33,670 nt of DNA from Actinomycetota bacterium (lineage in GTDB: Bacteria > Actinomycetota > Acidimicrobiia > Acidimicrobiales > Microtrichaceae). Of the stretch, positions 201-29,741 are shown piece after piece; position 1 is the stretch's first letter; every line of letters begins with the position of its first letter. The translations under genes were made by a program, and so were the position numbers. The DNA is taken from NCBI GenBank assembly GCA_016870275.1, contig VGBZ01000027.1, positions 1 through 33,670 on the forward strand, in the 5' to 3' direction. Below the pieces are notes generated by a model. The model saw only the letters and a program-made list of their open reading frames with translations. It was not told the DNA's origin and did no database searches.

Positions 201-230
201 TGGGTTTCGACGGTGTGGAGGGAGTCGCGT

Positions 231-236
231 TACCGT
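231..236 (+). promoter_or_regulatory. Predicted -10 box of rex (leaderless)
   Basis: TACCGT fits the actinobacterial TANNNT -10 pattern. The A of the ATG at 243 lies exactly 7 nt after its last T, which is where transcription would begin, so the mRNA is predicted to start at the start codon. The same geometry recurs at other genes in this window. No convincing -35 box is seen; TTCGAC at 206-211 is the nearest weak candidate. Confidence 0.5.
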
Positions 237-242
237 CAGGCG

Positions 243-989
243 ATGGTGAGCGACGGTCCGCGCCGGGCAGTTCCTGATGCTGCTGTAGCTCGTCTGCCCG
301 TCTATCACCGGTGCCTCCTCGACCTCGACGCCAGGGGCCGGGAGACGGTGTCCTCCGAACAGCTCGCCGAGCTCGCCGGAGTGAACGCCGCCATGGTTCG
401 CAAGGACCTGTCGTTGTTCGGGACCTACGGAACCCGGGGAGTGGGCTACCACGTCGCCGATCTGATCGTGGATCTCCGACGGGAACTCGGCCTCACGTCG
501 AGCTGGCCGTGTGTGATCGTCGGAGCGGGCAACCTGGGTTCTGCACTCGCAGCGTTCGGCGGCTTCGCCGAGCGTGGCTTCGAGGTGGTCGGAGTGGTCG
601 ACATCGACCCGCAGCGCATCGGTCAACGGATCGCCTCGCTCGTGGTGGCCCACCAGAACGACCTCGACCGGATCGTGGCCGACCACGTGGTGCTGATCGG
701 GGTGATCGCAGTTCCTCCGGGAGCTGCCCAGGATGCCGCCGATCGGCTGGTGGCCAGCGGGGTGCGTTCGCTCCTCAACTTCGCTCCGACGGTCATCGAC
801 GTTCCCGACGACGTCGGTGTCCGCAACGTCGACCTGGCGGTGGAGCTGCAGATCCTGGCGTTCCACGAGGGCCGTCGCGACGCCACACCGGCTGATGCGG
901 TGTCGCCGACCGACGATGAGGTCGAATCGCTGGCTGGCGCAGCGGTCGGTGTGGCCACAGATGCGCTGGAGGAATCGGCGACCGCCTGA
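243..989 (+). CDS. rex: Redox-sensing transcriptional repressor Rex
   Basis: Rex is a cytoplasmic dimeric repressor that binds DNA when NADH/NAD+ is low and is released by NADH. The protein (248 aa) has the N-terminal winged helix (about residues 13-80), with the family pattern around V-R-K-D-L-S and G-x-R-G-V-G-Y, then a Rossmann fold with GAGNLG near residue 93 and the conserved swapped C-terminal helix region (L-N-F-A-P ... V-D-L-A-x-E-L-Q). The ATG at 243 is preferred because it sits 7 nt after a -10-like TACCGT; a GTG at 213 in the same frame would add 10 residues. It heads the tetrapyrrole operon, as in Streptomyces where rex-hemACD is a known Rex-regulated operon. The final 30 residues are an acidic, poorly conserved-looking tail. 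Confidence 0.95.
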   Translation: MVSDGPRRAVPDAAVARLPVYHRCLLDLDARGRETVSSEQLAELAGVNAAMVRKDLSLFGTYGTRGVGYHVADLIVDLRRELGLTSSWPCVIVGAGNLGSALAAFGGFAERGFEVVGVVDIDPQRIGQRIASLVVAHQNDLDRIVADHVVLIGVIAVPPGAAQDAADRLVASGVRSLLNFAPTVIDVPDDVGVRNVDLAVELQILAFHEGRRDATPADAVSPTDDEVESLAGAAVGVATDALEESATA

Positions 990-11877: not shown

Positions 11878-12438
11878 TCAGACTGCCTGGAGAGTCAGGC
11901 GGACTCGCAGCCGCTCACCCTCGGGTGTCACCTCGAGCGCCCGGTTGATCCCGTTGCGCACATCTGCGGAGCCGCTGATCGGAGTTCCGGGGTTCAGCTT
12001 CCACAGGGGAGAGGAGTGGAGGATGGGTCGGGCACCCTCGGCGAGCGGCGGCAGACCCGACCCCGACACCAGCGCACCGGCCTGGTCTGTGTCGATCGTA
12101 AAGGTCACGTCGAGTTGGCGGTCACCGTCGAGCCGGGCGGTGAGGAAGTCCTGTGCCCCGTCGGGCACGTCGACGCCGCTGAACGACTCGACACCGGCGA
12201 GCGAGAGGTCGCTCAGTGCGAGTGTCGGAGTCGGACGACTCGGCACCGTGTTCGGACCGGGCTCGTCGGATCCTCCGCCCGTGATCACGAGACACCCGCC
12301 GATGAGCAGACCGATCAGCAGCAGACCGAGAACTGCGAGTCGACCGGGTGATGGAACCGCAACCCGGCTCTGTGGTTGCGGGTGGGTGTCCTCCGGTTGG
12401 TCGGTCGATTCGCTCAGACCGGGGGCTCCGCTGTCCAC
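11878..12438 (-). CDS. Unrecognised membrane-anchored or lipoprotein-like protein
   Basis: I do not recognise this 186-aa protein. After a hydrophilic Pro/Gln/Asp-rich stretch of about 30 residues it has one hydrophobic segment (about residues 33-52) ending L-L-I-G-G-C, then a soluble extracytoplasmic domain rich in beta-like sequence. The cysteine looks like a lipobox cysteine (I-G-G-C), but the long N-terminal stretch before the hydrophobic segment argues for a plain membrane anchor. It is co-directional with, and overlaps the end of, the cytochrome c gene, so the two are probably cotranscribed. The GTG at 12438 is the only standard start available; a CTG at 12417, overlapping the previous stop as CTGA and 8 nt after a GGAG, would give M-S-E-S-T-D-Q-P and is a serious alternative. 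Confidence 0.7.
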   Translation of the reverse strand: MDSGAPGLSESTDQPEDTHPQPQSRVAVPSPGRLAVLGLLLIGLLIGGCLVITGGGSDEPGPNTVPSRPTPTLALSDLSLAGVESFSGVDVPDGAQDFLTARLDGDRQLDVTFTIDTDQAGALVSGSGLPPLAEGARPILHSSPLWKLNPGTPISGSADVRNGINRALEVTPEGERLRVRLTLQAV

Positions 12439-13160
12439 TCCTCGAGCACCTTCTCGTACTCCGCTGCCTGATCGGGCAGGAACTCCTCCATGGTGGCGGC
12501 GAAGTCCTTGGACCACTTCTCCGCCTCGAACGCCTCGCCGTTGAACAGTCGTTCGTGGAGCGTCACCGCCATGATCTCCTCGGGGTCGAGGGACGCTTCG
12601 AACGCCGGCATGCCTCCCTTGAACGGCGTGCCGTTCTCCCAGGTGGTCTGACCGGCTTTCCTCCAGCCATCGGAGCCGAGGGCGATCCAGGCGACCTGCT
12701 TTGCGGGCGTGGGCCAGACCTTGGTCACGGCGGTGTCGCCGATCAGCGCGGGGATGTTCCCGTTGCCGCCGCCTCCGGCGCCGTGGCAACCAGCGCAACC
12801 CTTGCCGGCGTAGACCTCATCACCGAGTGTCACGGGGGAGTCCTTGGGGGTGGGCGGATCCAGCGTGAGGGCGTACAGCACGGCCCAGAACGGCAACAGG
12901 GCCAGTACCGGGACGGCCCAGTAGGGGATCTTCTTCCGTTGCTTGGCCGCATCGACCCATGGAGGCGTGGGCTCCACCGCAGCAGGAGTCACCACGGCTG
13001 GAGCAGCGGCAGCCGTTGGTGCCGGGGCCGAACTCTCCGTCGCTGCAACCGGTGCTGCCGAGGCCGCCTCGGGGACCGGTGTGGCATCACCGCCGTCGCC
13101 GGAGAGGGCGGCGCGCCGAGCGCGACTCCGGGCCAACAGGTGTTCGGGTACTTCGCTCAA
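12414..13160 (-). CDS. Membrane-anchored mono-haem cytochrome c
   Basis: This 248-aa protein carries one c-type haem site, C-A-G-C-H at residues 122-126, with a likely axial methionine Met184 in G-G-M-P-A-F. One membrane segment (about 79-99) anchors it, placing the haem domain outside the cytoplasm, so it could pass electrons from the bc complex to an oxidase. The first 70 residues are Ala/Pro-rich and begin M-S-E-V-P-E-H-L-L-A-R-S, nearly the same as the start of the subunit-IV-like cytochrome b protein at 15222. That match, plus GGAGG (13166-13170) 5 nt upstream, fixes the start as the TTG at 13160; the longer frame to 13424 runs through the promoter region of the divergent operon. The C-terminal helix is charged and unfamiliar. 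Confidence 0.85.
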   Translation of the reverse strand: MSEVPEHLLARSRARRAALSGDGGDATPVPEAASAAPVAATESSAPAPTAAAAPAVVTPAAVEPTPPWVDAAKQRKKIPYWAVPVLALLPFWAVLYALTLDPPTPKDSPVTLGDEVYAGKGCAGCHGAGGGGNGNIPALIGDTAVTKVWPTPAKQVAWIALGSDGWRKAGQTTWENGTPFKGGMPAFEASLDPEEIMAVTLHERLFNGEAFEAEKWSKDFAATMEEFLPDQAAEYEKVLEEWTAEPPV

Positions 13161-13165
13161 CGCTG

Positions 13166-13170
13166 CCTCC
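13166..13170 (-). promoter_or_regulatory. Ribosome binding site for the TTG-started cytochrome c
   Basis: GGAGG on the minus strand, 5 nt before the TTG at 13160. Together with the conserved N-terminal peptide it decides this rare start codon. Confidence 0.65.
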
Positions 13171-13204
13171 GCGGCGGATGGGGGACGACGGGATGAACCT
13201 GCCC

Positions 13205-13210: not shown

Positions 13211-13370
13211 CGCCGTCGGCGTGGGTCGAGGACAAGCGACGAGGGTCCCGATCACGCTTCGGTCGGGTGTCACAGCGAGGGCACGAACTGGGCTGCGGAT
13301 GTGCCAGTGAGCCCCGTCGGGTGGTAGACCAAAGGCACGCCGACGATCCCTCCGGACACCGTCGGAGAGG

Positions 13371-13376
13371 TACATT
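13371..13376 (+). promoter_or_regulatory. Predicted -10 box of the cytochrome bc operon
   Basis: TACATT fits TANNNT. The predicted transcript start is about 13383, leaving a 23-nt leader with a GGAGG site before the GTG at 13406. It overlaps the palindrome at 13375-13392. No clear -35 box is seen. Confidence 0.4.
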
Positions 13377-13392
13377 GTGAGAACTTTCACGA
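13375..13392 (+). promoter_or_regulatory. Candidate Rex (or CRP-family) operator
   Basis: The 18-bp site TTGTGAG-AACT-TTCACGA matches the known Rex consensus TTGTGAA-N4-TTCACAA at 12 of 14 specified positions, with the core TGTGA-N6-TCAC intact. It covers the predicted transcription start of the bc operon, where a bound repressor would block initiation. The consensus of CRP/FNR-family proteins, TGTGA-N6-TCACA, is nearly the same, so the binding protein cannot be decided by sequence. Rex is encoded in this window and respiratory genes are typical Rex targets, which favours Rex. Confidence 0.5.
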
Positions 13393-13405
13393 GCGGAGGC
13401 CGAAT

Positions 13406-13843
13406 GTGGTTGCGTTCCTGACATCGCTGCTGCTGACAGTGATCATGGTGGCGCCGATCTTCCCGTACGCCAAGCGCCGTCCGGTCGGTACCACGCTGAC
13501 GTGGGGCGAGGCCATCCTCGGTGGCACCTATATCTTCTTCGTGCTCTTCTGGATCTACGGCGTGGTTCCTCACCATTGGCTCACCTGGGCCGACTCCGAG
13601 TTGAACTGGCGCCCGGACACCATCTGGCTCGGACCCGGCGGTTCGCTGCTCGAGGTGTTCCCCGTGCAGGTCTCCGCCCAGGTGGTGCGGGACATCATCG
13701 CCACGCTCATCTACGTCGTGTTCCTCGGCGGCCAGATGTGGATGTGGGCGTGGTGGCAGAACCGTGGCGTGCGCGCCGAGAAACTCGCAGCCATCGAACC
13801 GACGTCGACCTACGGTCGCCCACTCATGAAGCGGGCCGGGTGA
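13406..13843 (+). CDS. Small membrane protein of the cytochrome bc operon, function unknown
   Basis: A 145-aa protein with three hydrophobic segments (about residues 2-21, 33-53 and 92-115), the last rich in Trp and Met (Q-M-W-M-W-A-W-W). A conserved-looking loop, V-V-P-H-H-W-L-T-W-A-D-S, contains two His that could face the outside. I do not recognise a family. It is the first gene of the bc operon, with GGAGG (13395-13399) 6 nt before the GTG; an overlapping ATG at 13404 is in another frame. Its place before the ferredoxin and cytochrome b suggests an accessory subunit or assembly factor, by inference only. Confidence 0.75.
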   Translation: MVAFLTSLLLTVIMVAPIFPYAKRRPVGTTLTWGEAILGGTYIFFVLFWIYGVVPHHWLTWADSELNWRPDTIWLGPGGSLLEVFPVQVSAQVVRDIIATLIYVVFLGGQMWMWAWWQNRGVRAEKLAAIEPTSTYGRPLMKRAG

Positions 13844-13907
13844 TCGTCGTGAGCACACCATCCGAGCGCAACTGCACCACTGAGACGAGCAGGGGAGGAG
13901 CCAGGCC

Positions 13908-14324
13908 GTGACCACCACTGACGCCAACCCGCCGATGCCGGAGTTCGTCGACGACTACGTCCTCCAAGAGGTCGACGCCGACTATCTCGCCAAGGCGGTC
14001 AAGCCCAAGCAGTTCATCCACATCGACCAGTCCGAATGCATCATGTGTGAGGGATGCGTCGACATCTGCCCGTGGAAGTGCATCCACATGGTCACCACCG
14101 ATGCGATCGACGACGCCGTGGGTGTCGACCGTCCCGGCACGGACCCGTCCGACCACGTGGTGTTCCTGATCGACGACGACGTGTGCACCCGCTGCGCTCT
14201 CTGTGTGGATCGCTGCCCGACCGGCGTGATCATCCTCGGAAAGGTCGGAGATCCCGCCGCTGCCGGCGATCTCCACCAGCGCACCTCGACCCACGGCTAC
14301 GGCTACGGCATGCGCCTCGGCTGA
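13908..14324 (+). CDS. 2x[4Fe-4S] ferredoxin-like protein of the bc operon
   Basis: A 138-aa soluble protein with two cysteine clusters: Cys44, 47, 50, 54 (C-I-M-C-E-G-C-V-D-I-C-P) and Cys93, 96, 99, 103 (C-T-R-C-A-L-C-V-D-R-C-P). Each is the CxxCxxCxxxCP pattern of bacterial [4Fe-4S] ferredoxins. The clusters are about 39 residues apart, separated by an acidic insert. A 35-residue N-terminal extension and a Gly/Tyr-rich tail (T-H-G-Y-G-Y-G) are extra. The GTG at 13908 follows a GGGAGGAG site. No signal peptide is seen, so it should be cytoplasmic. A ferredoxin inside a bc-complex operon is unusual; it may be a subunit or an electron carrier to the quinone-reducing side. Confidence 0.88.
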   Translation: MTTTDANPPMPEFVDDYVLQEVDADYLAKAVKPKQFIHIDQSECIMCEGCVDICPWKCIHMVTTDAIDDAVGVDRPGTDPSDHVVFLIDDDVCTRCALCVDRCPTGVIILGKVGDPAAAGDLHQRTSTHGYGYGMRLG

Positions 14325-14369
14325 GCCATCCTGAGACAACCACCCCGACGACACGAACAGGAGCGACAC

Positions 14370-15155
14370 GTGGCCAAGACCATGCAGGGCTCGCCGAAGA
14401 CGAAGATCCAGGACAAGATCAGCCAGGTCACCGACTCGGTGCAGGGCTCGCAGGCCTGGAACTCCATCTTCCGACCCGGCTCGATCTTCCGGAAGGGCTA
14501 CTCCGACAGTCCCCGGAACCGGTCCTACGTGATCATGAACAGCGTCCTGTACCACCTGCACCCGGTGAAGGTGAAGCGACACGCCGTCAAGGTCAGCTAC
14601 ACGCTCTGTCTCGGTGGGCTGAGCTTCTTCGTGTTCATCGTGTTGACGGTGACCGGCATCTTCTTGATGTTCTTCTACCGACCAACCGCCGCCCAGGCCT
14701 GGGACGACATCTACACGCTCCAGACCTCGGTCACCTTCGGTCTACTCGTACGAAACATGCACCGATGGGGCGCGCACCTCATGGTGCTGACCGTGTTCCT
14801 CCACATGGCACGCGTCTTCTACCACGGTGCGTACAAGGCACCACGAGAGTTCAACTGGGTGATCGGTGTGGTGCTCCTCACCCTCACCCTGTTGTTGTCC
14901 TTCACCGGTTACCTGCTGCCATGGGACCAGTTGGCGCTCTGGGCGGTGACCGTGGGCACCAACATGATGGGCTACACGCCGGTGTTCGGGAATCAGGTGA
15001 GATTCGTGCTGCTCGGCGGCGCCGAGATCGGAACCGACACGCTGCTGCGATGGTACGTACTCCACGTCCTGTTCTTCCCGTTCATCACCGTCATCTTCAT
15101 GGCCATCCACTTCTGGCGGGTCCGCAAGGACGGCGGCATCTCCGGGCCGCTCTGA
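14370..15155 (+). CDS. Cytochrome b, b6-like N-terminal subunit of the bc complex
   Basis: This 261-aa membrane protein binds the two b haems of the quinol:cytochrome c reductase. Four membrane helices carry the haem ligands His131/His232 and His145/His247. Spacings of 14 and 15 within the pairs and 101 between them match cytochrome b6. It also has H-R-W near 131, G-Y-L-L-P-W-D-Q near 180 and a b6-like C terminus, R-K-D-G-G-I-S-G-P-L. Cys80, in L-C-L-G-G, lies 51 residues before His131, exactly where b6 Cys35 attaches the extra haem c_i. The N-terminal 45 residues are hydrophilic. The GTG at 14370 follows an AGGAGCG site. Like b6 it lacks the C-terminal half of long cytochrome b, which the next gene supplies. 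Confidence 0.93.
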   Translation: MAKTMQGSPKTKIQDKISQVTDSVQGSQAWNSIFRPGSIFRKGYSDSPRNRSYVIMNSVLYHLHPVKVKRHAVKVSYTLCLGGLSFFVFIVLTVTGIFLMFFYRPTAAQAWDDIYTLQTSVTFGLLVRNMHRWGAHLMVLTVFLHMARVFYHGAYKAPREFNWVIGVVLLTLTLLLSFTGYLLPWDQLALWAVTVGTNMMGYTPVFGNQVRFVLLGGAEIGTDTLLRWYVLHVLFFPFITVIFMAIHFWRVRKDGGISGPL

Positions 15156-15221
15156 TTCGCCGGTCCGACCACACGAACACTTGAGACACCCGATCCATCC
15201 ATCCGAACCTGGAGCGAACAG

Positions 15222-16028
15222 ATGACCGAAGTTCCAGAACACCTCCTGAAGCGAGCCAAGGCGGCCCGGGACAAGGCCGCCACTCAACCCGAGGCGTCGG
15301 GCGAGACCCCGGCCGAGGGTGCCCCGGCAGAAGCCGCCGCCTCGGGTGGCGGAGACAGCCGCATCCCGGCGCACCTGCTCGAACGATCCAAGTCGGCCAA
15401 GGCCCGCAAGGCTGGTGGCGACGGTGACGGTGCTGCTGAGTCCGGCGGCGGCGTCGCCACCGCCGTGGCGACCACCACCACCGGAGGTGCAGTGGTGGCC
15501 GCCGGCGGCCCACCGCTCGCAGCCGGTCCGGGCGGTCACACGCAGCGGTTGCTGACCGTCGTGAAAGCCGGTTCGATCCAGGACGTCAAGGCCAAGCCGC
15601 AGGACAAGGTGCACGTCTGGCCCCACCTGATCGTGGGTGAGTTCGTGGCCGCTCTGGCGTGTTCGGTGTTCCTGTTGTTCTTCTCGTGGTTCGTCAACGC
15701 CCCACTGCTCGAGTTGGCCGACTTCAACAAGACGCCCAACCCGTCCAAGGCGCCGTGGTACTTCCTCGGACTCCAGGAGCTGTTGACCATGTTCCACCCG
15801 ATGGTCGCTGGCGTGACCATCCCGGGAATGGGGATCTTCCTGCTCATCCTGGCGCCCTACATGGACAAGAACTCGTCCAACAAACCCGAGGACCGGAAGT
15901 TCGCCATCTCCCTCATGACGCTGTTCCTCATGTTCTGGGCGGTCCTCGTCATCATCGGATCGTTCTTCCGCGGTCCCGGATTCAACTTCACCCTGCCCTG
16001 GGTGGACGGTCTCTTCTTCGAGTTGTGA
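15222..16028 (+). CDS. Cytochrome b C-terminal (subunit IV-like) protein with long N-terminal extension
   Basis: The C-terminal half of this 268-aa protein (about 130-268) has three membrane helices and matches subunit IV, the second half of split cytochrome b. The Qo-site region reads N-P-S-K-A-P-W-Y-F-L-G-L-Q-E at residues 173-186, so the PEWY motif is A-P-W-Y, without the usual glutamate. The first 110 residues are an extra Ala/Gly-rich, probably disordered stretch with two copies of a short motif: V-P-E-H-L-L-K-R-A-K at 4-13 and I-P-A-H-L-L-E-R-S-K at 48-57. The same motif starts the divergently encoded cytochrome c. The ATG at 15222 follows GGAGCG. It works with the preceding b6-like subunit. 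Confidence 0.92.
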   Translation: MTEVPEHLLKRAKAARDKAATQPEASGETPAEGAPAEAAASGGGDSRIPAHLLERSKSAKARKAGGDGDGAAESGGGVATAVATTTTGGAVVAAGGPPLAAGPGGHTQRLLTVVKAGSIQDVKAKPQDKVHVWPHLIVGEFVAALACSVFLLFFSWFVNAPLLELADFNKTPNPSKAPWYFLGLQELLTMFHPMVAGVTIPGMGIFLLILAPYMDKNSSNKPEDRKFAISLMTLFLMFWAVLVIIGSFFRGPGFNFTLPWVDGLFFEL

Positions 16029-16040
16029 GGTGATTGCATC

Positions 16041-16922
16041 GTGAACGGTTTCTTCATCGTCCTGTCCGTCCTGGTCGTCGTGGTCCTCGCTGCGGTGGCG
16101 CTCGCCGGTGCCATCCGCAGACGTGACGTCGACAGCGCCGTCGGATCGCTGGCTCGTGAGACCAGGCAGCGAGACAAGTCCGCCCGGAAGGCCGAGATGT
16201 CCGCCGTCGTCGACGCACCGGCGACCGGAGCCGAGGTGGAGCGCAGCGCAGCCCTCGCCCGGGTCGGTGGCGACGTCGCAGTGATCGACGAGCCGTCACC
16301 GCCCGCGGTGTTCGTGCCGCCCGACCCGGAGACCTACGGCGTGACCCGACGTCAGTTCCTCAACCGAGGTGTTTTTGCGCTCTTCGGTCTGGGGCTCACC
16401 GTGTTCGGCGTGGCGATCGTCGGATTCCTGTGGCCGTCGAGCAGTGGCGGCTTCGGGTCCAAGATCAAGGTGGGTTCGGTCTCCGACCTCAAGTCCGAGA
16501 TCGAACGGAGCGGGGGCTTCCTCTACAAGCCCGAGGGCCGCATGTGGCTCACCAACTACCCCTCGTCTGCCCTCGCCAAGGCCGAGCAGGTCTACTCACC
16601 GGCCGTGCTCAACTCGCTCAAGGCCGGAATCGCCGTGCTCTACCAGAAGTGCCCGCACCTCGGTTGCCGGGTGCCGGACTGCAAGAGTTCCCAGTGGTTC
16701 GAGTGCCCGTGCCACGGTTCTCAGTACAACCAGGCCGGCGAGAAGAAGGGCGGCCCGGCTCCTCGGGGCATGGACAACTTCGCCACCGAGGTCAACGGTG
16801 GCGTGCTCACCGTCAACACCGGACAGGTGATCCAGGGCCCGCCCATCGGGACCAACACCACCGGCCAGGAGGCCGAGGGCCCGAACTGCATCGGTGCCGC
16901 CTCCGGTGGGCACAGCGGCTGA
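16041..16922 (+). CDS. Rieske [2Fe-2S] iron-sulfur protein of the bc complex
   Basis: This 293-aa protein passes electrons from quinol at the Qo site to cytochrome c. The cluster ligands are Cys204/His206 (C-P-H-L-G-C) and Cys222/His225 (C-P-C-H-G-S), with Cys209 and Cys224 as the disulfide pair; an additional Cys214 lies between. There are two hydrophobic segments: an extra N-terminal one at about 4-24, and one at about 111-131 preceded by the twin-arginine sequence T-R-R-Q-F-L (102-107), as expected for Tat-dependent Rieske insertion. The loop between the two is charged and would be cytoplasmic. The GTG at 16041 follows GAGGTG. The C terminus extends past the usual end by about 40 Gly/Thr-rich residues. 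Confidence 0.94.
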   Translation: MNGFFIVLSVLVVVVLAAVALAGAIRRRDVDSAVGSLARETRQRDKSARKAEMSAVVDAPATGAEVERSAALARVGGDVAVIDEPSPPAVFVPPDPETYGVTRRQFLNRGVFALFGLGLTVFGVAIVGFLWPSSSGGFGSKIKVGSVSDLKSEIERSGGFLYKPEGRMWLTNYPSSALAKAEQVYSPAVLNSLKAGIAVLYQKCPHLGCRVPDCKSSQWFECPCHGSQYNQAGEKKGGPAPRGMDNFATEVNGGVLTVNTGQVIQGPPIGTNTTGQEAEGPNCIGAASGGHSG

Positions 16923-16965: not shown

Positions 16966-18201
16966 GTGATCGTCCTCGCCACCACCCAACGTGCGATCGG
17001 TTTCGTCATTCTCGTACTCGTCGTCATCGGGTTCCTCCTGTGGTACTTCGTCAACCTTCGGGCCAGTCGGGCAGAGATCGGCTCCGAGATCGAGTTGGCT
17101 GCCAACCGCAAGCCCGGGACGCCGGACGAGGAACTCGAGGGCAAGCGCCTGAACGTGGCGCTGTTCTCCGCCCTCGGCCTGCTGGCCCTCATCGCCGTGG
17201 GTCTCCCGCTCTACTGGTTGGGTGAGCCCGGCCGGATGGACGGAGCGGTCGAGACCTTCGACGAGACGTTCGTCCGGCGTGGTCTCGACATCTACGAGAA
17301 CGGCGCCCAGTGCGTGAACTGTCACGGCGGCGCCGGTGTCGGCGGGCTCGCCAACTTCGTGATCAACGACCAGAGCGGCAGTTTCGTGGCGCAGGTCAAC
17401 TGGATCGCCCCGGCGCTCAACAATGTGTTGTATCGCTTCGATGAGGATCAGGTGCGCTACATCCTCAACTACGGCCGGCCGGGGTCGCCCATGGCGGCGT
17501 GGGGTGCTCCCGGCGGTGGTCCGCTCACGACCCAGCAGATCGACGAGATCATTTCCTACCTGTGGACAGTGCAGCTGCCGGTCGAGGAGATGCGTTTCGA
17601 GGTCGACGAGTTCGTCAAGGGCATCGACCCGGGCCTCTACGAACGCATGATGCAGGTCCGCAAGTCCAATGAGGACGTCGCCCCGAAGGGCGACGTGGAG
17701 CCGGTCAACGCCAACCGTCTCTCGCGCGGCGATGAGATCAAGCTCGGCGAGATCCTGTTCAACAACCAGGAACTCGCCGCCGGGTCGTACTCCTGCGCCC
17801 GCTGTCACGTCGCCGGTACGAGTTACGGGAAGGGCTGGGAGCCGTTCGAGCGCCTGCAGTACGGATCGTTCGGCCCGAGCCTGATCGGTGTGGAGGTTGA
17901 TGCCACCGAGGAGCAGCACTTCGACCTCATCTGGAAGGGTATGGATTCGGGCAAGCTCTACTTCTCCCGCAGGCAGGGCAATCCGCAGATGCCCGGATTT
18001 GGCGTCAACCGAAACTCGGGTCAGGCCGACAAGGGCATCCCGGACCTGGGCAAGGAAGGACAACTCGCCCCCGAACAGGTCTGGGCGATCGTGACCTACG
18101 AGCGCAACCTCTCCAACGACTCGACGGTGAAGTCGCCCGTCGCCGGAACCGCCGAATCCCCGTCGTTCATCGACGTCGTTCGCCCGCCTGCGAGCGAGTG
18201 A
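16966..18201 (+). CDS. Membrane-bound di-haem cytochrome c of the bc complex
   Basis: A 411-aa protein with two c-type haem sites, C-V-N-C-H at 116-120 and C-A-R-C-H at 277-281. Likely axial methionines are Met176 (S-P-M-A-A-W) and Met342 (Q-M-P-G-F-G), so it looks like two class-I cytochrome c domains in a row. Two hydrophobic helices, about 11-30 and 63-84, flank a charged 30-residue loop and anchor it with the haems outside. It would take electrons from the Rieske protein, in the role of cytochrome c1 or of the di-haem QcrC of actinobacteria, though its two N-terminal anchors differ from the C-terminal anchor of QcrC. The GTG at 16966 follows GGAAGGAAA. Confidence 0.92.
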   Translation: MIVLATTQRAIGFVILVLVVIGFLLWYFVNLRASRAEIGSEIELAANRKPGTPDEELEGKRLNVALFSALGLLALIAVGLPLYWLGEPGRMDGAVETFDETFVRRGLDIYENGAQCVNCHGGAGVGGLANFVINDQSGSFVAQVNWIAPALNNVLYRFDEDQVRYILNYGRPGSPMAAWGAPGGGPLTTQQIDEIISYLWTVQLPVEEMRFEVDEFVKGIDPGLYERMMQVRKSNEDVAPKGDVEPVNANRLSRGDEIKLGEILFNNQELAAGSYSCARCHVAGTSYGKGWEPFERLQYGSFGPSLIGVEVDATEEQHFDLIWKGMDSGKLYFSRRQGNPQMPGFGVNRNSGQADKGIPDLGKEGQLAPEQVWAIVTYERNLSNDSTVKSPVAGTAESPSFIDVVRPPASE

Positions 18202-18226: not shown

Positions 18227-19219
18227 ATGACACTGTTCTTCTCCGCAATCAGCTTCGATCCCAACATCCGCGGGGCCCTCGTCGTGGCGGTGGGCGTGGT
18301 GGTGCTGTGCGGATCGGTGTACCTGCTGCTCGCCACCAACACCGGTGTCCGCAACGGATTCCTGATCGCTGCGGCCGGCCTCATGGGCTGGATGTTCTCC
18401 ATGGGGATCATCTGGTGGATCTACGGCATCGGCCTCCGCGGCACGGACCCGTCGTGGTCGTCGAAGGAGATCAACTTCTCGCGCTCGGATGGCGTGGCCA
18501 CCGAGGTGGTCGAACGTCTGCCCGCCTCTGCGGACCTACCGGACCCGCAGACGTTCCTGTCCGACTACCTCGCAACCAACCCCGAACTGGCCCAGAAGAT
18601 CGCTGACACCGAGGGCGAGGGGTTCACCGCCCGGACGCTCACGGATGCTGTGACGGTGGCTCCGACGCTCAAGGAACCACTCGACGGGCAACTCGAGGGC
18701 TGGCGGATCCTGCCGGCGACCGACTCGCGTCGTGGCGATGCCGTTGCCTCAGCGGACGCTCTGCTCGCCGAGGCCGGGGCGTTCGGCCAGTCCACATCGA
18801 CGTCGATGTACACCGTCAAGGACGTGTTCTTCTACGGCGGCAAGAGTGCGTCCGAACCGGAGACGGTGAAGGGCGAGCGGTCCGCTCTGGACAGGGCATG
18901 GCGTCGTGTGGTCACGATCTTCGAACCGCTCAACCCGCCGCTCTACGCAGCGGTCACGGTGCAGAAGAATGTTGAGCAGATCGTCGCACCCGGCGAAGCA
19001 CCTCCTCCCCCCAAGGTCGACGAGTCCGCAGACACGGTCACCGTCGTGATGGTTCGCAACCTCGGCACCCGACGGTTGATCCCCTTCCTGTTCACCCTGT
19101 TCTCGGGTCTCGTCTTCTTCGCCCTGGTGTGGATGCTCCACAACCGTGACAAGCGAGCAATGGCGGCCAGGTCCGATTGGGATCCGTCGCAGGCCGAGCT
19201 CCCAGCCGGGACTCGCTGA
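18227..19219 (+). CDS. Unrecognised membrane protein between bc genes and nuoA
   Basis: I do not recognise this 330-aa protein. Two membrane helices near the N terminus (about 13-36 and 43-66; the second contains [10 protein letters not shown]) are followed by about 215 soluble residues and a third helix near 284-306, then a basic tail. The W-x-x-S-x-E-I-N-F-S segment after helix 2 looks like a functional loop. No cysteines or haem motifs are present, so it does not bind c-type haem. The ATG at 18227 has AGGA about 7 nt upstream. It lies 25 nt after the di-haem cytochrome gene and 3 nt before nuoA, so it probably belongs to the same transcript. A structural or assembly subunit of the bc complex is a reasonable guess. 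Confidence 0.78.
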
Positions 19220-19222
19220 GTC

Positions 19223-19690
19223 ATGGGGCAGTATCTGCCGATTGTGGCGATGATCGTGCTCGCCGGGTTGTTCGCCGCACTCAGCTTCGTGGCGTCGAGC
19301 CTGCTCCAGCCCCGACGACCCAACCCGATCAAGGTCTCGCCGTACGAGTGCGGCATCGTCGATCAGACCGAACCTCCAGAGCGCTTCCCGGTGCGCTTCT
19401 TCCTCATTGCGATGATCTTCATCGTGTTCGACATCGAGATCATCTTCTTCTACCCCTTCACGATGGTCGTCGATCAGCTCGGCGGTTACGGACTCGCAGC
19501 GATCGGGATCTTCGCTGTGGCGGTGTTCGAGTCGTTCCTCTACCTAGTCCGCAACGGAGCCCTCGAGTGGGGTCCGGTGGTGCGGGCCCGGAGGACGCAG
19601 CTCCGCTCACAGGTCGATCGGACATCGGCGAGCACGATCCGCCGGGTGGGCAGCGAGGGTCGCCCAGTGTCGACGGAGGTGGCGGCCTGA
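19223..19690 (+). CDS. nuoA: NADH-quinone oxidoreductase subunit A
   Basis: A membrane subunit of complex I, 155 aa, with three helices. The family signature is clear: the Y-E-C-G loop at about residues 40-43, then [20 protein letters not shown], with the conserved acidic residues of helix 2. The C terminus is extended by about 35 polar residues past helix 3. The ATG follows the previous stop by 3 nt. The stop overlaps the nuoB start as TGATG. No promoter-like gap separates it from the bc genes. Confidence 0.96.
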
Positions 19691-20283
19691 TGGGACTCGT
19701 CTCCAACGTCGCAGACGACGGTCTCGCCGGTCTCGAACACAACGTCCTGACCGGCCGGATCGAGGATCTCGTGCGCTGGGCCCGCAAGCGGAGTTGTTGG
19801 CCGGCGACGTTCGGTCTGGCGTGCTGTGCGATCGAGATGATGGCCACCGGTGGTGCCCACTACGACCTCGCCCGCTTCGGGATGGAGGTGTTCCGGGCGT
19901 CGCCTCGGCAGGCGGATCTGATGATCGTCGCTGGTCGGGTCTCCCAGAAGATGGCGCCGGTGCTCCGCACGATCTACGACCAGATGATGGAACCGAAGTG
20001 GGTCATCTCCATGGGCGTGTGCGCCTCCTCCGGCGGGATGTTCAACAACTATGCGATCGTCCAAGGCGTCGACCAAGTGGTCCCGGTGGACGTCTACGCC
20101 CCGGGTTGCCCTCCCGGCCCGGAGACCCTCCTGCAGGCGATCATCACGCTGCACGAGCAGATCGAGACCGGTGAGATCCTCCGGCGCCGTGGCGACGAAG
20201 GCGTCGGCGCCCGCATCGTGATCGATCAGGTCGACGGGCAGGCAGCACCGGTGCTCCTCGCCAACCGCACCACCGACCGGTGA
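19690..20283 (+). CDS. nuoB: NADH-quinone oxidoreductase subunit B
   Basis: This peripheral-arm subunit (197 aa) holds cluster N2, the last iron-sulfur cluster before quinone. The four ligands are visible: Cys45 and Cys46 (G-L-A-C-C-A-I-E-M), Cys111 (G-V-C-A-S-S-G-G) and Cys140 (P-G-C-P-P-G-P). The ATG at 19690 overlaps the nuoA stop. The frame is open upstream to 19177, but that part lies in nuoA and has no family similarity. The last 35 residues are a less conserved tail. Confidence 0.97.
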
Positions 20284-20296
20284 TCGGACGGCGGAC

Positions 20297-20833
20297 GTGA
20301 CCGAGGTGGCCGAGGAGGTTCCCGGAGAACCTGCTGCTCCGGGTGCGACTGTGCACGGTGTGTTGGTCTCGGATTCTCGGGGCCAGGAGGTGCTGCACCC
20401 TGATCGCAGCGACTACGTCGACCTCGTCGAGCGCCTGCGGGCCGAGGGCTACTGGATGGCCGTCGACCTGTGCGGAGTGGACTACCTGAACACGCCGGGG
20501 GATCGAGGCCTCCCTGTCGGTGTCGAGCCGGAGCGTTTCGAGGTCGTCGTCAACCTGATCGATCACCGCAACCGTCGTCGCACCCGAATCCGAGTGCAGG
20601 TTCCCGACGACGACCCGGTGGTCCCGTCGCTGTTCTCCGTCCACCCCGGTCTCGAGGCGTCCGAGCGTGAGGCCCACGACCTGCTCGGCATCGTGTTCAG
20701 CGGACACCCCGACCTGAGCCGCATCCTCCTGCCCGACGACTGGGTCGGCCACCCGCTCCGCAAGGACTCCTCGATCGGTCGGATCCCGGTGCAGTTCAAG
20801 GACCCGACGGCGAGTGGAGGTGCCCGCCCGTGA
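20297..20833 (+). CDS. nuoC: NADH-quinone oxidoreductase subunit C
   Basis: This 178-aa soluble subunit of the connecting arm has the 30-kDa family signature H-P-x-L-x-A-S-E-R-E-A-H-D-L-L-G-I-x-F-x-G-H-P-D-L near residues 117-140, then I-L-L-P-D-D-W-x-G-H-P-L-R-K-D. The first 40 residues are variable. It is separate from NuoD, unlike the fused NuoCD of E. coli. The GTG at 20297 follows GGACGGCGGAC; the stop overlaps nuoD as GTGA. Confidence 0.95.
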   Translation: MTEVAEEVPGEPAAPGATVHGVLVSDSRGQEVLHPDRSDYVDLVERLRAEGYWMAVDLCGVDYLNTPGDRGLPVGVEPERFEVVVNLIDHRNRRRTRIRVQVPDDDPVVPSLFSVHPGLEASEREAHDLLGIVFSGHPDLSRILLPDDWVGHPLRKDSSIGRIPVQFKDPTASGGARP

Positions 20834-22164
20834 GCCAGGTCGTCGATCCCGAAACCATCTCCGGCCCTGATGCCGCAATCGACCTGTCCGTCCTCGACGA
20901 GGCCCGCAGCCGCCTCGCCAACGACGACGCAGTGCTGCGGTTGTCGGCGACCGAGGCCGAGGAACGCTCCGGCTACCAGCCGCCCACCGACGAGGGTCTC
21001 GGTGAGCGGATGATCATGAACATGGGTCCCCAGCACCCGTCCACCCACGGTGTGCTGCGTCTCGTCCTCGAACTCGACGGCGAGGAGATCACGCGGTCGC
21101 GGCCCGTCGTCGGCTACCTCCACACCGGCATGGAGAAGACCGCCGAACAACTCACCTACCTGCAGGGTCCGACCAACGTCACCCGCATGGACTACGCAGC
21201 CCCGCTGTTCAACGAGCTCGTCTTCTCGATGGCCACCGAGCAGCTCCTCGGCGTGGAGGTTCCCGAGCGGGCCCAGTGGATCCGGACGCTCATGTGCGAG
21301 GTCAATCGGATCTCATCGCACATGTTGTTCATGGCCACCAACGGCATGGACCTCGGTGCGGTGGGCATGATGCTGTACGGGTGGAGGGAGCGGGAGGAAC
21401 TGCTCCGGTTCCTCGAGCAGGTGACCGGCCTGCGCATGAACCACAACTACATCCGCCCGGGGGGTGTGGCCGCTGACCTGCCCGACGGATGGGAGGAGCA
21501 CCTCGATTCGGTCCTGTCGGTGCTGCCCGAACGCCTCGAGGAATTCGACACGCTCATGACCGGTCAACCCATCTGGCGGGACCGACTCCAGGGCGTCGGC
21601 GTGATCACCGCCGAGGAAGCCATCACGCTGGGCGCCACCGGTCCGATTCTCCGCTCCACCGGTTACGCCTGGGACCTGCGCCGCGACCTGCCGTACCTCT
21701 GCTACGACCAACTCGACTTCGACGTGATCGTCGGTACGCACGGCGACAGCTTCGATCGCTACAGCATTCGCCTCGCTGAGATCCGTGAGTCGATCGGCAT
21801 CGTCCGACAGTGCATGGAGAAGATGCCTCCCGGCGACTACCGGATCCAGGACAAGAAGGTGACTCCGCCGCCCCGAGCTCGCATCGACGAGTCCATGGAG
21901 GCGCTCATCCATCACTTCAAGATCTTCACCGAGGGATTCAAGGTTCCCGAGGGGGAGGTCTACGTGGCGGTCGAGAACCCGCGGGGCGAGCTGGGCTGCT
22001 ACCTCGTCTCGGACGGTTCGTCGCACCCGGTGCGCATGCACATCCGGGCGCCGAGCTTCTTCAACCTCCAGACACTGCCGCACCTCATGCAGGGTTCGCT
22101 CATCGCCGACACGGTCGCCGTCGTGTCGTCGGTGGACCCGATCATGGGCGACGTGGACCGCTGA
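20830..22164 (+). CDS. nuoD: NADH-quinone oxidoreductase subunit D
   Basis: This 49-kDa subunit (444 aa) helps form the quinone-binding cavity with NuoB. It shows M-N-M-G-P-Q-H-P-S-T-H-G-V-L-R near residues 61-75 with the quinone-site histidines, then H-T-G-M-E-K, M-D-Y-A-A, and the C-terminal D-P-I-M-G-D-V-D-R that ends the family. The first 55 residues are a variable extension. The GTG at 20830 overlaps the nuoC stop. A GAGGAGG run after the stop serves nuoE. Confidence 0.97.
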   Translation: MSQVVDPETISGPDAAIDLSVLDEARSRLANDDAVLRLSATEAEERSGYQPPTDEGLGERMIMNMGPQHPSTHGVLRLVLELDGEEITRSRPVVGYLHTGMEKTAEQLTYLQGPTNVTRMDYAAPLFNELVFSMATEQLLGVEVPERAQWIRTLMCEVNRISSHMLFMATNGMDLGAVGMMLYGWREREELLRFLEQVTGLRMNHNYIRPGGVAADLPDGWEEHLDSVLSVLPERLEEFDTLMTGQPIWRDRLQGVGVITAEEAITLGATGPILRSTGYAWDLRRDLPYLCYDQLDFDVIVGTHGDSFDRYSIRLAEIRESIGIVRQCMEKMPPGDYRIQDKKVTPPPRARIDESMEALIHHFKIFTEGFKVPEGEVYVAVENPRGELGCYLVSDGSSHPVRMHIRAPSFFNLQTLPHLMQGSLIADTVAVVSSVDPIMGDVDR

Positions 22165-22175
22165 GGAGGACGTCC

Positions 22176-22811
22176 GTGCCCAGGTTCACCCCCGACAACG
22201 AGACGATCGCCCGCAACATCGTCGAGCGCTACCCGCTGCCCAAGTCGGCCACCATCCCCCTGTGTCATCTGGCTCAGGAACAGGACGGCTACCTCACCAC
22301 CGATGCCATGGAGCACGTCGCCGAACTCGTCGGGTGCACCCCGGCGGAGGTGCTCGGCACGGCGAGCTTCTATGAGATGTTCAAGCTCCACCCCGTCGGC
22401 CGGTACTGCCTGAACATCTGCACCAACATCTCGTGTCGGATCGTCGGCGCCCGGGAACTGCTCGAGCATGCCGAGGGACGTCTCGGTGTTCGCGCCGGTG
22501 GGACCACCGCGGACGGGACCATCACGCTCGAGGACGTGGAGTGCATCGCAGCGTGCACCGAGGCCCCGGCCCTGCAGGTCAACTACCGCTACGTCGAGAG
22601 GGTCGACGTCGAAGCGCTCGACGCGCTCATCGACGACCTGCGTTCGGGCACCGGGCGGGCCGAGGAGTTCCCGCCGCACGGAACCCTCGGTCTGATCCGT
22701 CAGGATCTTGCCCCGGGTGATCTCGCCAACGTCACCCCGCCGGAGGATCAGACCGAACCGGTGTGGTTCTCCCGGAACGCCACCACCGACAGCGAGGAGG
22801 GAGCATCGTGA
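22176..22811 (+). CDS. nuoE: NADH-quinone oxidoreductase subunit E
   Basis: The 24-kDa subunit (211 aa) carries the off-path [2Fe-2S] cluster N1a. Ligands are Cys82 and Cys87 (C-T-N-I-S-C) and Cys123 and Cys127 (E-C-I-A-A-C), the thioredoxin-like pattern of the family. The GTG at 22176 has GAGGAGGA 5 nt upstream. About 45 residues follow the last conserved part. Its end overlaps the nuoF start as GTGA. Confidence 0.95.
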   Translation: MPRFTPDNETIARNIVERYPLPKSATIPLCHLAQEQDGYLTTDAMEHVAELVGCTPAEVLGTASFYEMFKLHPVGRYCLNICTNISCRIVGARELLEHAEGRLGVRAGGTTADGTITLEDVECIAACTEAPALQVNYRYVERVDVEALDALIDDLRSGTGRAEEFPPHGTLGLIRQDLAPGDLANVTPPEDQTEPVWFSRNATTDSEEGAS

Positions 22812-24280
22812 GCGCCTCGGCCACCAACGGTCACGCCGACGGGACCGTCACCAGCAGCGGTGACACGCCGCTGATCGTGTCGTCCCGATTCGATGTGCCC
22901 GACGCCCACACGCTCGAGGTCTACCGGACCTCGGGGTCGTTCCCCGGATACGCCGGTCTCGCCGCTGCGCTCGAACTCACCCCGGACGAGGTGAGGGCGT
23001 CGGTGACGGCCGCCACCCTGCTCGGCCGTGGCGGAGCAGGTTTCCCGGCCGGCGTGAAGTGGGGCTTCTGTCCACCCGGGGTCTGGCCCCGCTACGTCGT
23101 GGTCAACGGCGACGAGTCCGAACCGGGCACCTTCAAGGACCGTCGTCTCATGGAGCGCGATCCGCACCAACTGATCGAGGGGGCGCTCATCGCCGCCTAC
23201 GCCATCGGTGCGGCGCAGGTGTTCCTCTACGTGCGCGGCGAGATGCCGCACGCCCAGGAGCGGATCGCCGGAGCGCTCAACGAGGCGCTCGCTGCCGGTC
23301 TGGTCGGCCGGAGCATCCTCGGCTCGGACTTCAGCGTCGACGTCGTCCTCCACTGGGGCGCCGGCGCCTACATCGTCGGTGAGGAGACAGCGCTCATCGA
23401 GTCGCTCGAGGGCAACCGCGGCATGCCCCGACTGAAGCCACCCTTCTTCCCGGCGGCCAAGGGCCTCTACATGCAGCCGACGATCGTCAACAACATCGAG
23501 ACCTTGTCCAACCTGCCGTGGATCCTCCACCACGGAGTCGACGCCTACACCGCCATCGGGAGCGAGACATCTCCCGGTACCCGGCTCGTGGCGCTGTCGG
23601 GTCACGTCCGACGCCCCGGCATCTACGAGATCCCCCAGGGCACCACGACGTTCCGTGATCTGATCTACGACGACCGCTACGGCGGTGGGATCCGTGACGG
23701 CCGTGAGCTCAAGATGTTCATCCCCGGTGGAGCGTCGGCACCGTGGTTCTTCCCCGAGCAACTCGACCTGCCGTTCGAGGCCAAGCCCGTCGGTGCCGCC
23801 GGTTCCATGCTCGGTTCGGGTGCGGTCGTCGTGATGGACGAGACCACCGACGCCGTCGAGGCCTGCTACTCGATCGTGCGGTTCTTCGCCCGGGAGTCCT
23901 GCGGCAAGTGCACTCCCTGTCGTGAGGGCACCACATGGGAGGAGAAGATCCTCGAGCGGATCCTCGAGGGCCACGGCCGCCCGTCCGACATCGACCTGCT
24001 CCTCGACGTGGCCGACAACATCAGCCCTGGGCCCTACCCTGTCGCCGCTGATCCCGCTCAGGAGCTCTCCGCCGTGCCGTTCCCCCCCAAGCAGACGACC
24101 ATCTGCCCGCTCGGTCCGTCGTCGGTCGCACCCATCACCTCGGCCATCCGCCGATTCCGCTCGGAGTTCGAGTTGCGGATCACCCGCCGTGACCTGATCC
24201 CGGTGGCTGCCGGCGGAGTTGTGTCCTCAGACGGTGAGGCGAGCAGTGACCTCGGTGACGAACGGCGGGTCGATGTCTGA
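22808..24280 (+). CDS. nuoF: NADH-quinone oxidoreductase subunit F
   Basis: The NADH- and FMN-binding subunit (490 aa), where NADH gives up its electrons. It has the G-R-G-G-A-G-F-P-A-G-V-K-W NADH/FMN motif near residue 75, N-G-D-E-S-E-P-G-T-F-K-D-R near 100, and G-A-G-A-Y-I-V-G-E-E-T-A-L near 185. Cluster N3 ligands are Cys365, 368 and 371 (C-G-K-C-T-P-C) and Cys433 (T-T-I-C-P-L-G). The spacing of 62 from third to fourth cysteine, against 41 in E. coli and Thermus enzymes, shows an insertion of about 21 residues (roughly 408-428). The GTG at 22808 overlaps the nuoE stop. The end overlaps nuoG by 8 nt. Confidence 0.96.
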   Translation: MSASATNGHADGTVTSSGDTPLIVSSRFDVPDAHTLEVYRTSGSFPGYAGLAAALELTPDEVRASVTAATLLGRGGAGFPAGVKWGFCPPGVWPRYVVVNGDESEPGTFKDRRLMERDPHQLIEGALIAAYAIGAAQVFLYVRGEMPHAQERIAGALNEALAAGLVGRSILGSDFSVDVVLHWGAGAYIVGEETALIESLEGNRGMPRLKPPFFPAAKGLYMQPTIVNNIETLSNLPWILHHGVDAYTAIGSETSPGTRLVALSGHVRRPGIYEIPQGTTTFRDLIYDDRYGGGIRDGRELKMFIPGGASAPWFFPEQLDLPFEAKPVGAAGSMLGSGAVVVMDETTDAVEACYSIVRFFARESCGKCTPCREGTTWEEKILERILEGHGRPSDIDLLLDVADNISPGPYPVAADPAQELSAVPFPPKQTTICPLGPSSVAPITSAIRRFRSEFELRITRRDLIPVAAGGVVSSDGEASSDLGDERRVDV

Positions 24281-26753
24281 GCGTCCCCGTCCGCTGGAGA
24301 TCACCGATCCCGTCACGATCACCGTCGACGGGCGATCGGTCGAGGTGCAGCGAGGCGAGCTGCTGATCGATGCGTGCGAGCGCAACGACGCCTACATTCC
24401 TCGATTCTGCTACCACCCACGCATGGAGCCGGTCGGCATGTGCCGCATGTGCCTGGTCGAGGTCGACACCGGTAGAGGTCCGGCGCTGCAGCCGAGTTGC
24501 ATGATCCCGACCGCTGCCGACATGGTCGTATCGACCACCAGCGACCTGGTCGCCAAGGCCCAGGACGGGGTGCTCGAGTTTCTGCTCGCCAACCACCCGC
24601 TCGACTGCCCGGTGTGCGACAAGGGTGGCGAGTGTCCGCTGCAGGACCAGACGATGTCCTACGGCCCCGGCGAGTCCCGCTGGGTGGAGGAGAAGCGCCA
24701 CTACGAGAAGCCCATTGAGATCTCCCCGTTGGTGTTGTTGGACCGGGAGCGCTGCATCCTCTGTGACCGCTGCACCCGGTTCGCCTCCGAGGTCACCGAC
24801 GATCCGCTGATCCACTTCATCAACCGGGGTTCGAACACCGAGGTCAACACCTTCCCCGGCGACCCCTTCAGTTCGTACTTCTCGGGCAACACCGTGCAGA
24901 TCTGTCCGGTCGGGGCGCTGACGGCCACGCCGTACCGGTTCCGGGCCCGGCCGTGGGACCTGGAGCGCACCGAGTCCACCTGCACGGTGTGTTCGGTCGG
25001 TTGTCGGGTGACGCTCGAGTCGAGTCGTGACCGGCTGCTGCGGATCAACGGCGTCGACTCAGATCCGGTCAACTGGTCGTGGCTCTGCGATGCCGGTCGG
25101 TTCTCCTTCGAGGCCACCAACAGCAAGGACCGTCTCACCGACCCACTCCATCGACGCAGCGATGGATCCTTCGATCCGATCCGCTGGTCCGAGGCGCTCG
25201 CTGCGGTGGCCGACGTGCTCGCTTCGACCGCGCCGGAGCGTCTCGCTGTCCTCGGCGGTGCGCGGCTCACCGACGAGGCCGCATTTGCGTGGGCGTCCCT
25301 CGCCAAGGGCGTCGTCGGCACCGATCACGTGGACGCCCAGCTCGGTGACGGCCTGCCGGCCGACGTGTTCGACCTGCCCGGCGCCAGCATCGACGACGTC
25401 TGCCGGCCGGGTGGCACGGTCATCTACATGGGACCCGATCCCAAGGAGGAGCTGCCGGTGCTCTTCCTCCGGCTCAAGCACGCCGCCGTCCGGGACCGGG
25501 TGCGGATCGTGGAGGTCACGCCCACTGCAACGAGCCTCTCGCTCTACGCCGCTGCGAGCGTGCACCCCCGACCCGGCGAGCTCGCCGCCGTCGCCGGGGT
25601 GCTCGCCGGGGCCTCCATCCCCGACGACGGAGTGGCCGGGGTCGACGCCGAGCACCTGCGCAGTGCCCTGAGTGTCCTCTCCGATGCCGACGGCCCGCTG
25701 ACGGTCGTGCTCGGTCGGGCCAACCTCGCCGAATCCGGCGCCGTGGTACTCGCCGCCGCAGCTCAACTCGCAGGTCTGCCCGATGTCAGCTTCCTGCCGG
25801 TCGTGCGCCGTGGCAACGTCCGTGGCGCCGTCGCCGCCGGCCTGACCCCCGGCCGACTGCCGGGCGGCGGCCGACTCGACTCCGACACCCACTGGTCGTC
25901 GGTGTGGCCGACGTTCCCCGCCGCGCCGGGTGCGGATGCGCTCGGCATCCTGTCTGCGGCCGCAGCCGGTGAGATCTCGACGCTCGTACTGCTCGGAGCC
26001 GATCCGTTGAGCGACGCCCCCGACCGCGCGCTCGCCGAGCGGGCGCTGGAGCGGGTCGAGACCATCATCGCCCTCGACGCATTCGAACAGCCGTCGGTCG
26101 CTCGGGCGCACATCGTGCTGCCTGTGGCGATGCCCGGCGAGGTCGACGGGACCACCACCAACGCCGAGGGACGGGTGTCGCGGGTTCGCGCCAAGGTGAC
26201 GCCTCCTGGCACCGCCCGACCCGACTGGATCGTCGCTGTCGAACTCGCCCGACGTCTGGGCGCCGAGTGGCAGGCGGGCACTGCCGAGGAACTGCGCAAC
26301 GAACTCGTCGCCGGATCACCCCGGCTCAGCGGGACCGAGTGGTCCGTCGTCGATGCCGCCACCGACGGCGTGCTCGTGGATCTCTCCGCCGGCACCTTCG
26401 ACCCCGGACCCCCTCCGCCGGTACCGCAGGTCGACAGCTACTCGCTCCGATTGGTCCTGACCCGTGAGCTCTACGACCATGGCGAGATGCTCGAGCGCTC
26501 CGAGTCCCTCGTCGGCCTGTCGCGTACCCCCACCGTCGGCATCTCGACCGGTGACGCGGAGCGACTCGGGGTCACCTCCGGGACGCCGCTGGTCGTGCGG
26601 GGCGAGCGGTGGTCGATCACGCTCCCGGCCCGCGTCAGCACCGGAGTGCCCCGAGGATCGGCGCACCTCGTCCACCGTCTGGCCGACTCCGACCCGATCG
26701 CCCTGCTCGACAGCGGCGAGCTCGCCTGCGACGTGCGAGTGGAGCTGGCCTGA
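24273..26753 (+). CDS. nuoG: NADH-quinone oxidoreductase subunit G
   Basis: The largest peripheral subunit (826 aa), carrying several iron-sulfur clusters. Residues 1-80 are a [2Fe-2S] ferredoxin domain with Cys46, 57, 60 and 76 (N1b). Then come the H-P-L-D-C-P-V-C-D-K-G-G-E-C-P-L-Q-D segment (N5, with its His ligand supplied nearby) and C-I-L-C-D-R-C-T-R-F with C-P-V-G-A-L (N4). A further C-T-V-C-S-V-G-C ... C-D-A-G set follows, like the extra cluster (N7) at the start of molybdopterin-oxidoreductase-type domains. The remainder is the degenerate molybdopterin-oxidoreductase fold, with a C-terminal beta domain. The ATG at 24273 overlaps the nuoF stop; an in-frame upstream start at 24219 is less likely. 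Confidence 0.95.
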   Translation: MSERPRPLEITDPVTITVDGRSVEVQRGELLIDACERNDAYIPRFCYHPRMEPVGMCRMCLVEVDTGRGPALQPSCMIPTAADMVVSTTSDLVAKAQDGVLEFLLANHPLDCPVCDKGGECPLQDQTMSYGPGESRWVEEKRHYEKPIEISPLVLLDRERCILCDRCTRFASEVTDDPLIHFINRGSNTEVNTFPGDPFSSYFSGNTVQICPVGALTATPYRFRARPWDLERTESTCTVCSVGCRVTLESSRDRLLRINGVDSDPVNWSWLCDAGRFSFEATNSKDRLTDPLHRRSDGSFDPIRWSEALAAVADVLASTAPERLAVLGGARLTDEAAFAWASLAKGVVGTDHVDAQLGDGLPADVFDLPGASIDDVCRPGGTVIYMGPDPKEELPVLFLRLKHAAVRDRVRIVEVTPTATSLSLYAAASVHPRPGELAAVAGVLAGASIPDDGVAGVDAEHLRSALSVLSDADGPLTVVLGRANLAESGAVVLAAAAQLAGLPDVSFLPVVRRGNVRGAVAAGLTPGRLPGGGRLDSDTHWSSVWPTFPAAPGADALGILSAAAAGEISTLVLLGADPLSDAPDRALAERALERVETIIALDAFEQPSVARAHIVLPVAMPGEVDGTTTNAEGRVSRVRAKVTPPGTARPDWIVAVELARRLGAEWQAGTAEELRNELVAGSPRLSGTEWSVVDAATDGVLVDLSAGTFDPGPPPPVPQVDSYSLRLVLTRELYDHGEMLERSESLVGLSRTPTVGISTGDAERLGVTSGTPLVVRGERWSITLPARVSTGVPRGSAHLVHRLADSDPIALLDSGELACDVRVELA

Positions 26754-29725: not shown

Positions 29726-29741
29726 GGTCGAGGTAACCGAG

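Follow-up and report, generated by a model that had tools for sequence, protein, structure and literature searches.

A predicted operator for the NADH-sensing repressor Rex in front of a cytochrome bc and complex I gene cluster in an actinobacterium of the order Acidimicrobiales

A palindrome at 13375-13392 of the window (the whole stretch of DNA analysed, 33,670 nucleotides) stands in front of a long set of respiratory genes and raises the question of which regulator uses it. In the work of Brekasis and Paget from 2003, Rex of Streptomyces coelicolor is said to repress respiratory genes and to be released from them by NADH; S. coelicolor belongs to a different lineage from the organism treated here. 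CRP sites (TGTGA-N6-TCACA) are nearly identical to Rex sites, and GlxR controls respiratory genes of Corynebacterium glutamicum. The initial annotation of the window had proposed Rex and left the choice between Rex and a CRP/FNR-family protein open. Our analysis indicates that the palindrome is very probably (roughly 0.92) the operator for the Rex protein encoded in the same window, because of the site itself, its conservation, its position at a −10-like element and its dependence on rex across the order. Binding of Rex, release by NADH and repression at this site are proposed by analogy with known Rex proteins, that of Streptomyces avermitilis in particular (PMC5355995).

The initial annotation described a set of about 20 kb of bc and complex I genes behind the site, and reading the cluster gene by gene (13406-33669; Table 1) bears this out. 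Intergenic gaps from 13406 onward are at most 66 nt, some starts being approximate, and the gene order is identical in all 15 relatives for which the downstream 20 kb was taken. While nuoA was named by NCBIfam (under its curated cut-off), the other nuo genes were named from their translations and conserved order. A terminator scan of 13300-33200 gave 12 matches against 7.1 in shuffles, none of them decisive. The rex gene, earlier placed 13 kb away, lies about 12.4 kb from the operator on the same contig (C27 of the genome) and is identified by its NCBIfam equivalog match. On its 3' side are a siroheme-synthase-like gene (below curated cut-offs) and then hemA, hemC, hemD, hemB, and hemL, all five named from translations.

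Table 1. Features of the window discussed in the text (coordinates are window positions).
Feature	Position	Strand	Evidence or remark
rex	213..989 (real start probably ~244)	+	NF003992 Rex equivalog, 306 bits; solved Rex structures, E 3e-51
Divergent cytochrome c gene, shares intergenic region	12414..13196	-	Cytochrome_CBB3 1.5e-07; start inferred
TGGTAGAC, possible extended −10 of second upstream promoter or divergent-gene element	13322..13329	+	
−10 element candidate TACATT	13371..13376	+	Shares operator's first two bases; TANNNT register statistics
Rex operator, predicted	13375..13392	+	TTGTGAGAACTTTCACGA; sequence, rarity, conservation, co-occurrence with rex
GGAGG ribosome-binding site	13395..13399	+	6 nt ahead of GTG 13406; sequence
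145-aa membrane protein, cluster's first gene	13406..13843	+	GTG start; no Pfam/NCBIfam match
4Fe-4S ferredoxin-like protein	13908..14324	+	Fer4 7.9e-11
Cytochrome b N-terminal half	14337..15155 (start approximate)	+	Cytochrome_B 7.1e-46 for 14370-15155
Cytochrome b C-terminal half	15222..16028	+	Cytochrom_B_C 8.6e-08
Rieske iron-sulfur protein	16041..16922	+	NF010001 1.9e-14, under its curated cut-off
Cytochrome c, two CxxCH motifs	16966..18201	+	Cytochrome_CBB3 3.8e-11; motifs in translation
330-aa conserved membrane protein	18227..19219	+	No Pfam/NCBIfam match
nuoA to nuoM, then open frame off contig end (nuoN by position)	19223..33669	+	

The palindrome reads TTGTGAG-AACT-TTCACGA and fits the Rex consensus TTGTGAA-N4-TTCACAA at 12 of 14 positions; re-reading the sequence confirmed both the place and the score given for it earlier. 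The window has no second place with three or fewer mismatches to this consensus, and shuffled versions of it are expected to hold 0.10 such matches (at least one in 10 of 100 shuffles). A genome-wide motif scan, suggested as a check in the initial annotation, found that in the 3.2-Mb genome (96.3% complete) the palindrome alone fits TTGTGA-N6-TCACAA with no more than one mismatch; when up to two are allowed, 19 places match, compared with 12 for a reversed-pattern control. When the motif was instead learned from the relatives, 13375-13392 was the only exact match in its own genome, and allowing one mismatch gave 9 places, this one included, vs. 2 in the control. Both deviations from the consensus (G7 and G17) are common in the order, being found in 42% and 82%, respectively, of 72 distinct sites. 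These sites, which include one from a genome without rex (G167), give the logo (T/A)TGTG(A/C)(A/G)NNNNTTCAC(G)A(G).

Among the window and its relatives, a site with at least 10 of 12 core bases occurs within 350 bp upstream of the homologue of the 145-aa protein at 42 of 50 loci. It lies 26 to 229 nt before the matched frame, and is thus kept while its position shifts. According to the initial annotation, the proposal would be refuted if close relatives had lost the palindrome. The outcome was the opposite: the five other genomes of the genus that were examined (L005-L009) all have it intact, although some genomes of the same family (G006, G020, G021, and G028) have lost it. The eight loci without the site in this first set include rex-positive G021 and G028. 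The ribosome-binding site is kept together with the operator in both same-genus genomes that were aligned. A scan of genome contigs brought up 11 relatives, all titled as MAGs and hence no cultured organism. Public records titled Bifidobacterium breve (L161 and L162) group with these other actinobacterial assemblies, at 69% identity to the window's protein, and are probably mislabelled.

The two candidate regulators can be told apart by their distribution. To this end, a set of 140 order genomes with a completeness of at least 95% was searched for the genome's own CRP (matched at 0.001 in 115), the Rex DNA-binding domain (found in 108) and the 145-aa protein (homologues in 102). A CRP match below 1e-30 was counted as positive, and "without CRP" means that no match to the own protein reached 1e-10. 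The upstream 450 bp were read at 102 places in 101 genomes (G079 was not fetched, two fragment places were omitted, G136 contributes two places, and G093 contributes 262 bp), a site again being at least 10 of 12 core bases, a threshold that base-shuffled upstream regions reach in 0.6%. The site is present at 73 of the 83 places with rex, as opposed to 1 of the 19 without (Fisher p 5e-12, uncorrected for kinship, with 14 of the 19 rex-less places in two families, f35 and f47). The matched frame lacks a start codon at 30/83 rex-positive and 9/19 rex-less places, where the promoter is less sure; when only frames with a start codon are counted, the site is found at 49/53 places with rex vs. 1/10 without. 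Re-reading 700 bp at 22 site-less places (17 of them rex-less, with G165 left out, and two places covering 262 and 679 bp) added no site. The site thus tracks rex across the order, as expected if Rex is the regulator that was proposed.

The genome's own CRP/FNR-family (GlxR-like) protein, for which the cluster would be a cAMP-type target, was considered as the rival regulator. A cNMP-binding protein with an HTH_Crp_2 domain is encoded at G000:C60:5938-6594 (56 bits; SRERVNKAI in the helix-turn-helix), the site differs from a TGTGA-N6-TCACA-type core by one mismatch in 12 bases, and the GlxR and CRP sites of Actinobacteria are nearly the same in their half-sites and likewise have respiratory targets. 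Unlike those sites, the presence of the site here is independent of the own-type CRP: it occurs at all 9 places that have rex without such a CRP, and is lost at 5 of the 6 that have CRP without rex (present at 1/6). Where neither gene is found it occurs at 0/13 places. For two of the nine CRP-less places (G041 and G060), an additional HTH_Crp_2 search gave weak, partial matches of 25 bits and, slightly above the cut-off, 28.4 bits; the other seven were judged by the own protein. In addition, a global CRP would need a genome-wide excess of sites, and the scan above gave one place with at most one mismatch and little over the control with two. TTGTGC half-sites, found in 33% of the 72 order sites, are also present at one of the footprinted Rex sites of S. 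avermitilis (PMC5355995). Co-occurrence therefore led us to reject CRP/FNR as the regulator, a reading we consider very unlikely, and the choice that had been left open is largely settled in favour of Rex by the relatives.

Control by Rex and CRP together at the one site would suit the sequence, which fits both kinds of protein, as well as the presence of both genes in the genome. Among rex-positive places, however, the CRP makes no clear difference, the site being found at 62/72 with CRP against 11/11 where CRP is missing or doubtful (doubtful in two of these; p 0.34), and such dual control appears exceedingly unlikely. An 18-bp palindrome could also arise without function somewhere in a genome of 3.2 Mb, but a sequence that has no equal elsewhere in the genome and is kept at such a share of the rex-positive places leaves next to no room for chance.

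The places without rex bear further on the assignment of the site to Rex. A hemA gene was matched in 18 of the 19 rex-less genomes (weakly in G172), and in 17 it is strong and followed by hemC and/or a hemD-type gene. These 17 genomes have no rex match in the 1.5 kb before hemA, where three rex-positive control loci do show rex, and the site is found in none of the 17 (0/17). The single rex-less place that retains a site is that of G167; as hemA is likewise unmatched there, the assembly probably lacks the rex-hem block. Remnants can be seen elsewhere. For instance, the aligned place of G142 reads TTGAGCGCAGGTGAAT, where three relatives of the same genus (G065, G110, and G154) carry TTGTGCGAGGATTCACGA, and G137 and G172 have similarly decayed sites. 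The rex-less genomes fall into five groups (f35, f47, G142, G165, and g99) plus G167, a tally of groups and not a tree-based count of losses. In several lineages rex and the operator are missing together, a pattern that resembles a natural knock-out series and favours Rex over CRP, and the same co-occurrence method could be used on other look-alike sites.

Contrary cases exist in both directions. Ten of the 83 rex-positive places have no site (G006, G020, G045, G055, G038, G101, G094, G080, G135, and G148); they score 6-9 of 12, G055 having a shortened spacer, and five of them (G080, G094, G101, G135, and G148) have none within 700 bp either. Conversely, G016, G017, and G033 (75, 85, and 84% complete) have the site with no rex match, and G035 (97% complete) has no rex match, yet carries TTGTGAAACTTTTCTCAA at an atp-operon-like gene. 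These four may represent gaps or other regulators.

The position of the operator suggests how Rex could act. Of the 72 distinct sites, 45 are preceded by a TANNNT element in the −6 to −4 registers, compared with 0-4 of 72 in 13 other three-register windows. Since this −10-like element abuts the operator, the operator is predicted to cover −10/+1, and transcription would be expected to start at about 13382-13384, within it. The earlier claim that the operator lies over the transcription start is supported indirectly by this register; a simple sigma-70 consensus scan did not report TACATT and had its sole match within the first gene. A Rex dimer on the site would cover −10/+1 and block RNA polymerase. 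At low NADH, Rex would repress the bc-complex I cluster, and a rise in NADH would free Rex, such that more of the NADH-oxidising chain would be made.

Upstream of the operator, TGGTAGAC is found in 25/102 upstream regions, and TG(G/C)TAGAC or similar, about 50 nt upstream of the operator, at 48/102 places vs. 1.8% in shuffles, the wider variant set behind the latter count having been picked after the data had been seen. This type of element may be a second promoter, which Rex on the operator would obstruct from downstream.

S. avermitilis Rex provides the closest described system. Gel shift, ChIP, and footprinting there show binding to the rex-hem, nuoA1-N1, atp, and cyd promoters, gel shift and ChIP identify wblE as a direct target, and NADH weakens the binding (PMC5355995). 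Its footprinted sites include TTGTGCACGCGTTCACAA (rex), TTGTGATACGGTTCACGA (atpI), and TTGTGACCTGCTTCACAT (nuoA1), and its sites at rex-hemAC1DB, nuoA1-N1, atpIBEFHAGDC, and wblE have the same TTGTGAA-N4-TTCACAA consensus as here, with the tolerated variants TTGTGCA and TTCACGA common to those sites and the sites of the order (PMC5355995). The rex gene lies beside haem genes in both, and nuo, rex-hem, atp, and a WhiB gene recur as targets, in the order as candidates (PMC5355995). Two features differ from the reported S. avermitilis arrangement: here one site fronts a joint bc and complex I cluster, and it overlaps the 3' end of the −10-like element and the expected start, whereas in S. avermitilis the sites of nuoA1, atpI, and rex are placed between −35 and −10 (PMC5355995). 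In Streptomyces, nuo, rex-hem, atp, and wblE were thus already known to be controlled by Rex (PMC5355995). According to the present analysis, Rex would control complex I in another actinobacterial order too, and a single switch would govern the cytochrome bc genes along with it; this joint target and the promoter geometry are the local features. A literature search, as worded, returned no paper on Rex in this lineage, which does not prove absence from print.

The same motif recurs at other promoters of the order. A site of at least 10/12 lies near the rex start in 18 of 30 rex loci; these sites commonly read TTGTGAA-N4-TGCACGA, with half-site variants in common with the cluster sites, and the rex-promoter site is decayed in five of six genomes of the window's own genus. 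Thirty-six stretches (35 distinct) were opened around other sites in relatives, chosen from the best matches listed. Six of them are near a WhiB-type gene (by tblastn) and five near gene 1 of the F0F1-ATPase (three over the Pfam cut-off, one below, and one called by eye); many of the rest are in reading frames or uninformative, and the G036 site and several of G060 have no informative context. At the start of the ATPase gene 1, L300 (G035:C58), L298, L301, L306, and L154 carry TTGTGAA-N4-TTCTCAA or similar. The lack of a rex match in G035 speaks against Rex at its atp-type site, or else rex was missed there. In the window's own genome, TTGTTCTAGGTTTCACAA (L055:1501-1518 = G000:C1:142871-142888) scores 10/12 about 188 nt before a WhiB-family gene, and TGATGAAGTTCTTCACAA (L003) is an intergenic weak match about 170 nt before an unnamed frame. 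The weak matches of this genome were also considered as a regulon and set aside, as eight of the sites at the ten loci opened fall inside reading frames or at their edges, the other two being intergenic.

In the Rex protein, all 30 rex loci compared (the best 30 of 53) have the same VRKDLS in the DNA-binding domain. In the same 30, a tyrosine that lies near the NAD(H) site in solved Rex structures is Phe in 24, the window included, and Tyr in 6. In Thermotoga maritima Rex, the dimer closes with NADH and Tyr100 contacts the nicotinamide (PMC6125430). By alignment, the Phe/Tyr position would be the equivalent of Tyr100, and the change from Tyr to Phe may alter the response to NAD+. The sole strong site at the bc-complex I cluster, the lost rex operator and this sensor change together lead us to suggest, tentatively and as the less probable course of events, that the Rex circuit of this genus has been reduced to nearly a single target, where Rex would serve as a minimal homeostat linking NADH to the chain that oxidises it, with altered NAD+ sensing. 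Directly upstream of rex, at the contig end (1-170), GTACAAGTTCGATCTTGTAC recurs whole or in part within near-identical stretches.

The cluster also holds two membrane proteins without a family, encoded at its first position and ahead of nuoA, that are kept across the order. The 330-aa protein has the same cluster position in 15/15 relatives, and both are possible unnamed subunits of the bc complex. In two genomes of one family (f29; L267 of G060 and L275 of G107), whose fetched stretches stop before the cluster end, nuoD and nuoE are separated by about 4 to 5 kb of other DNA.
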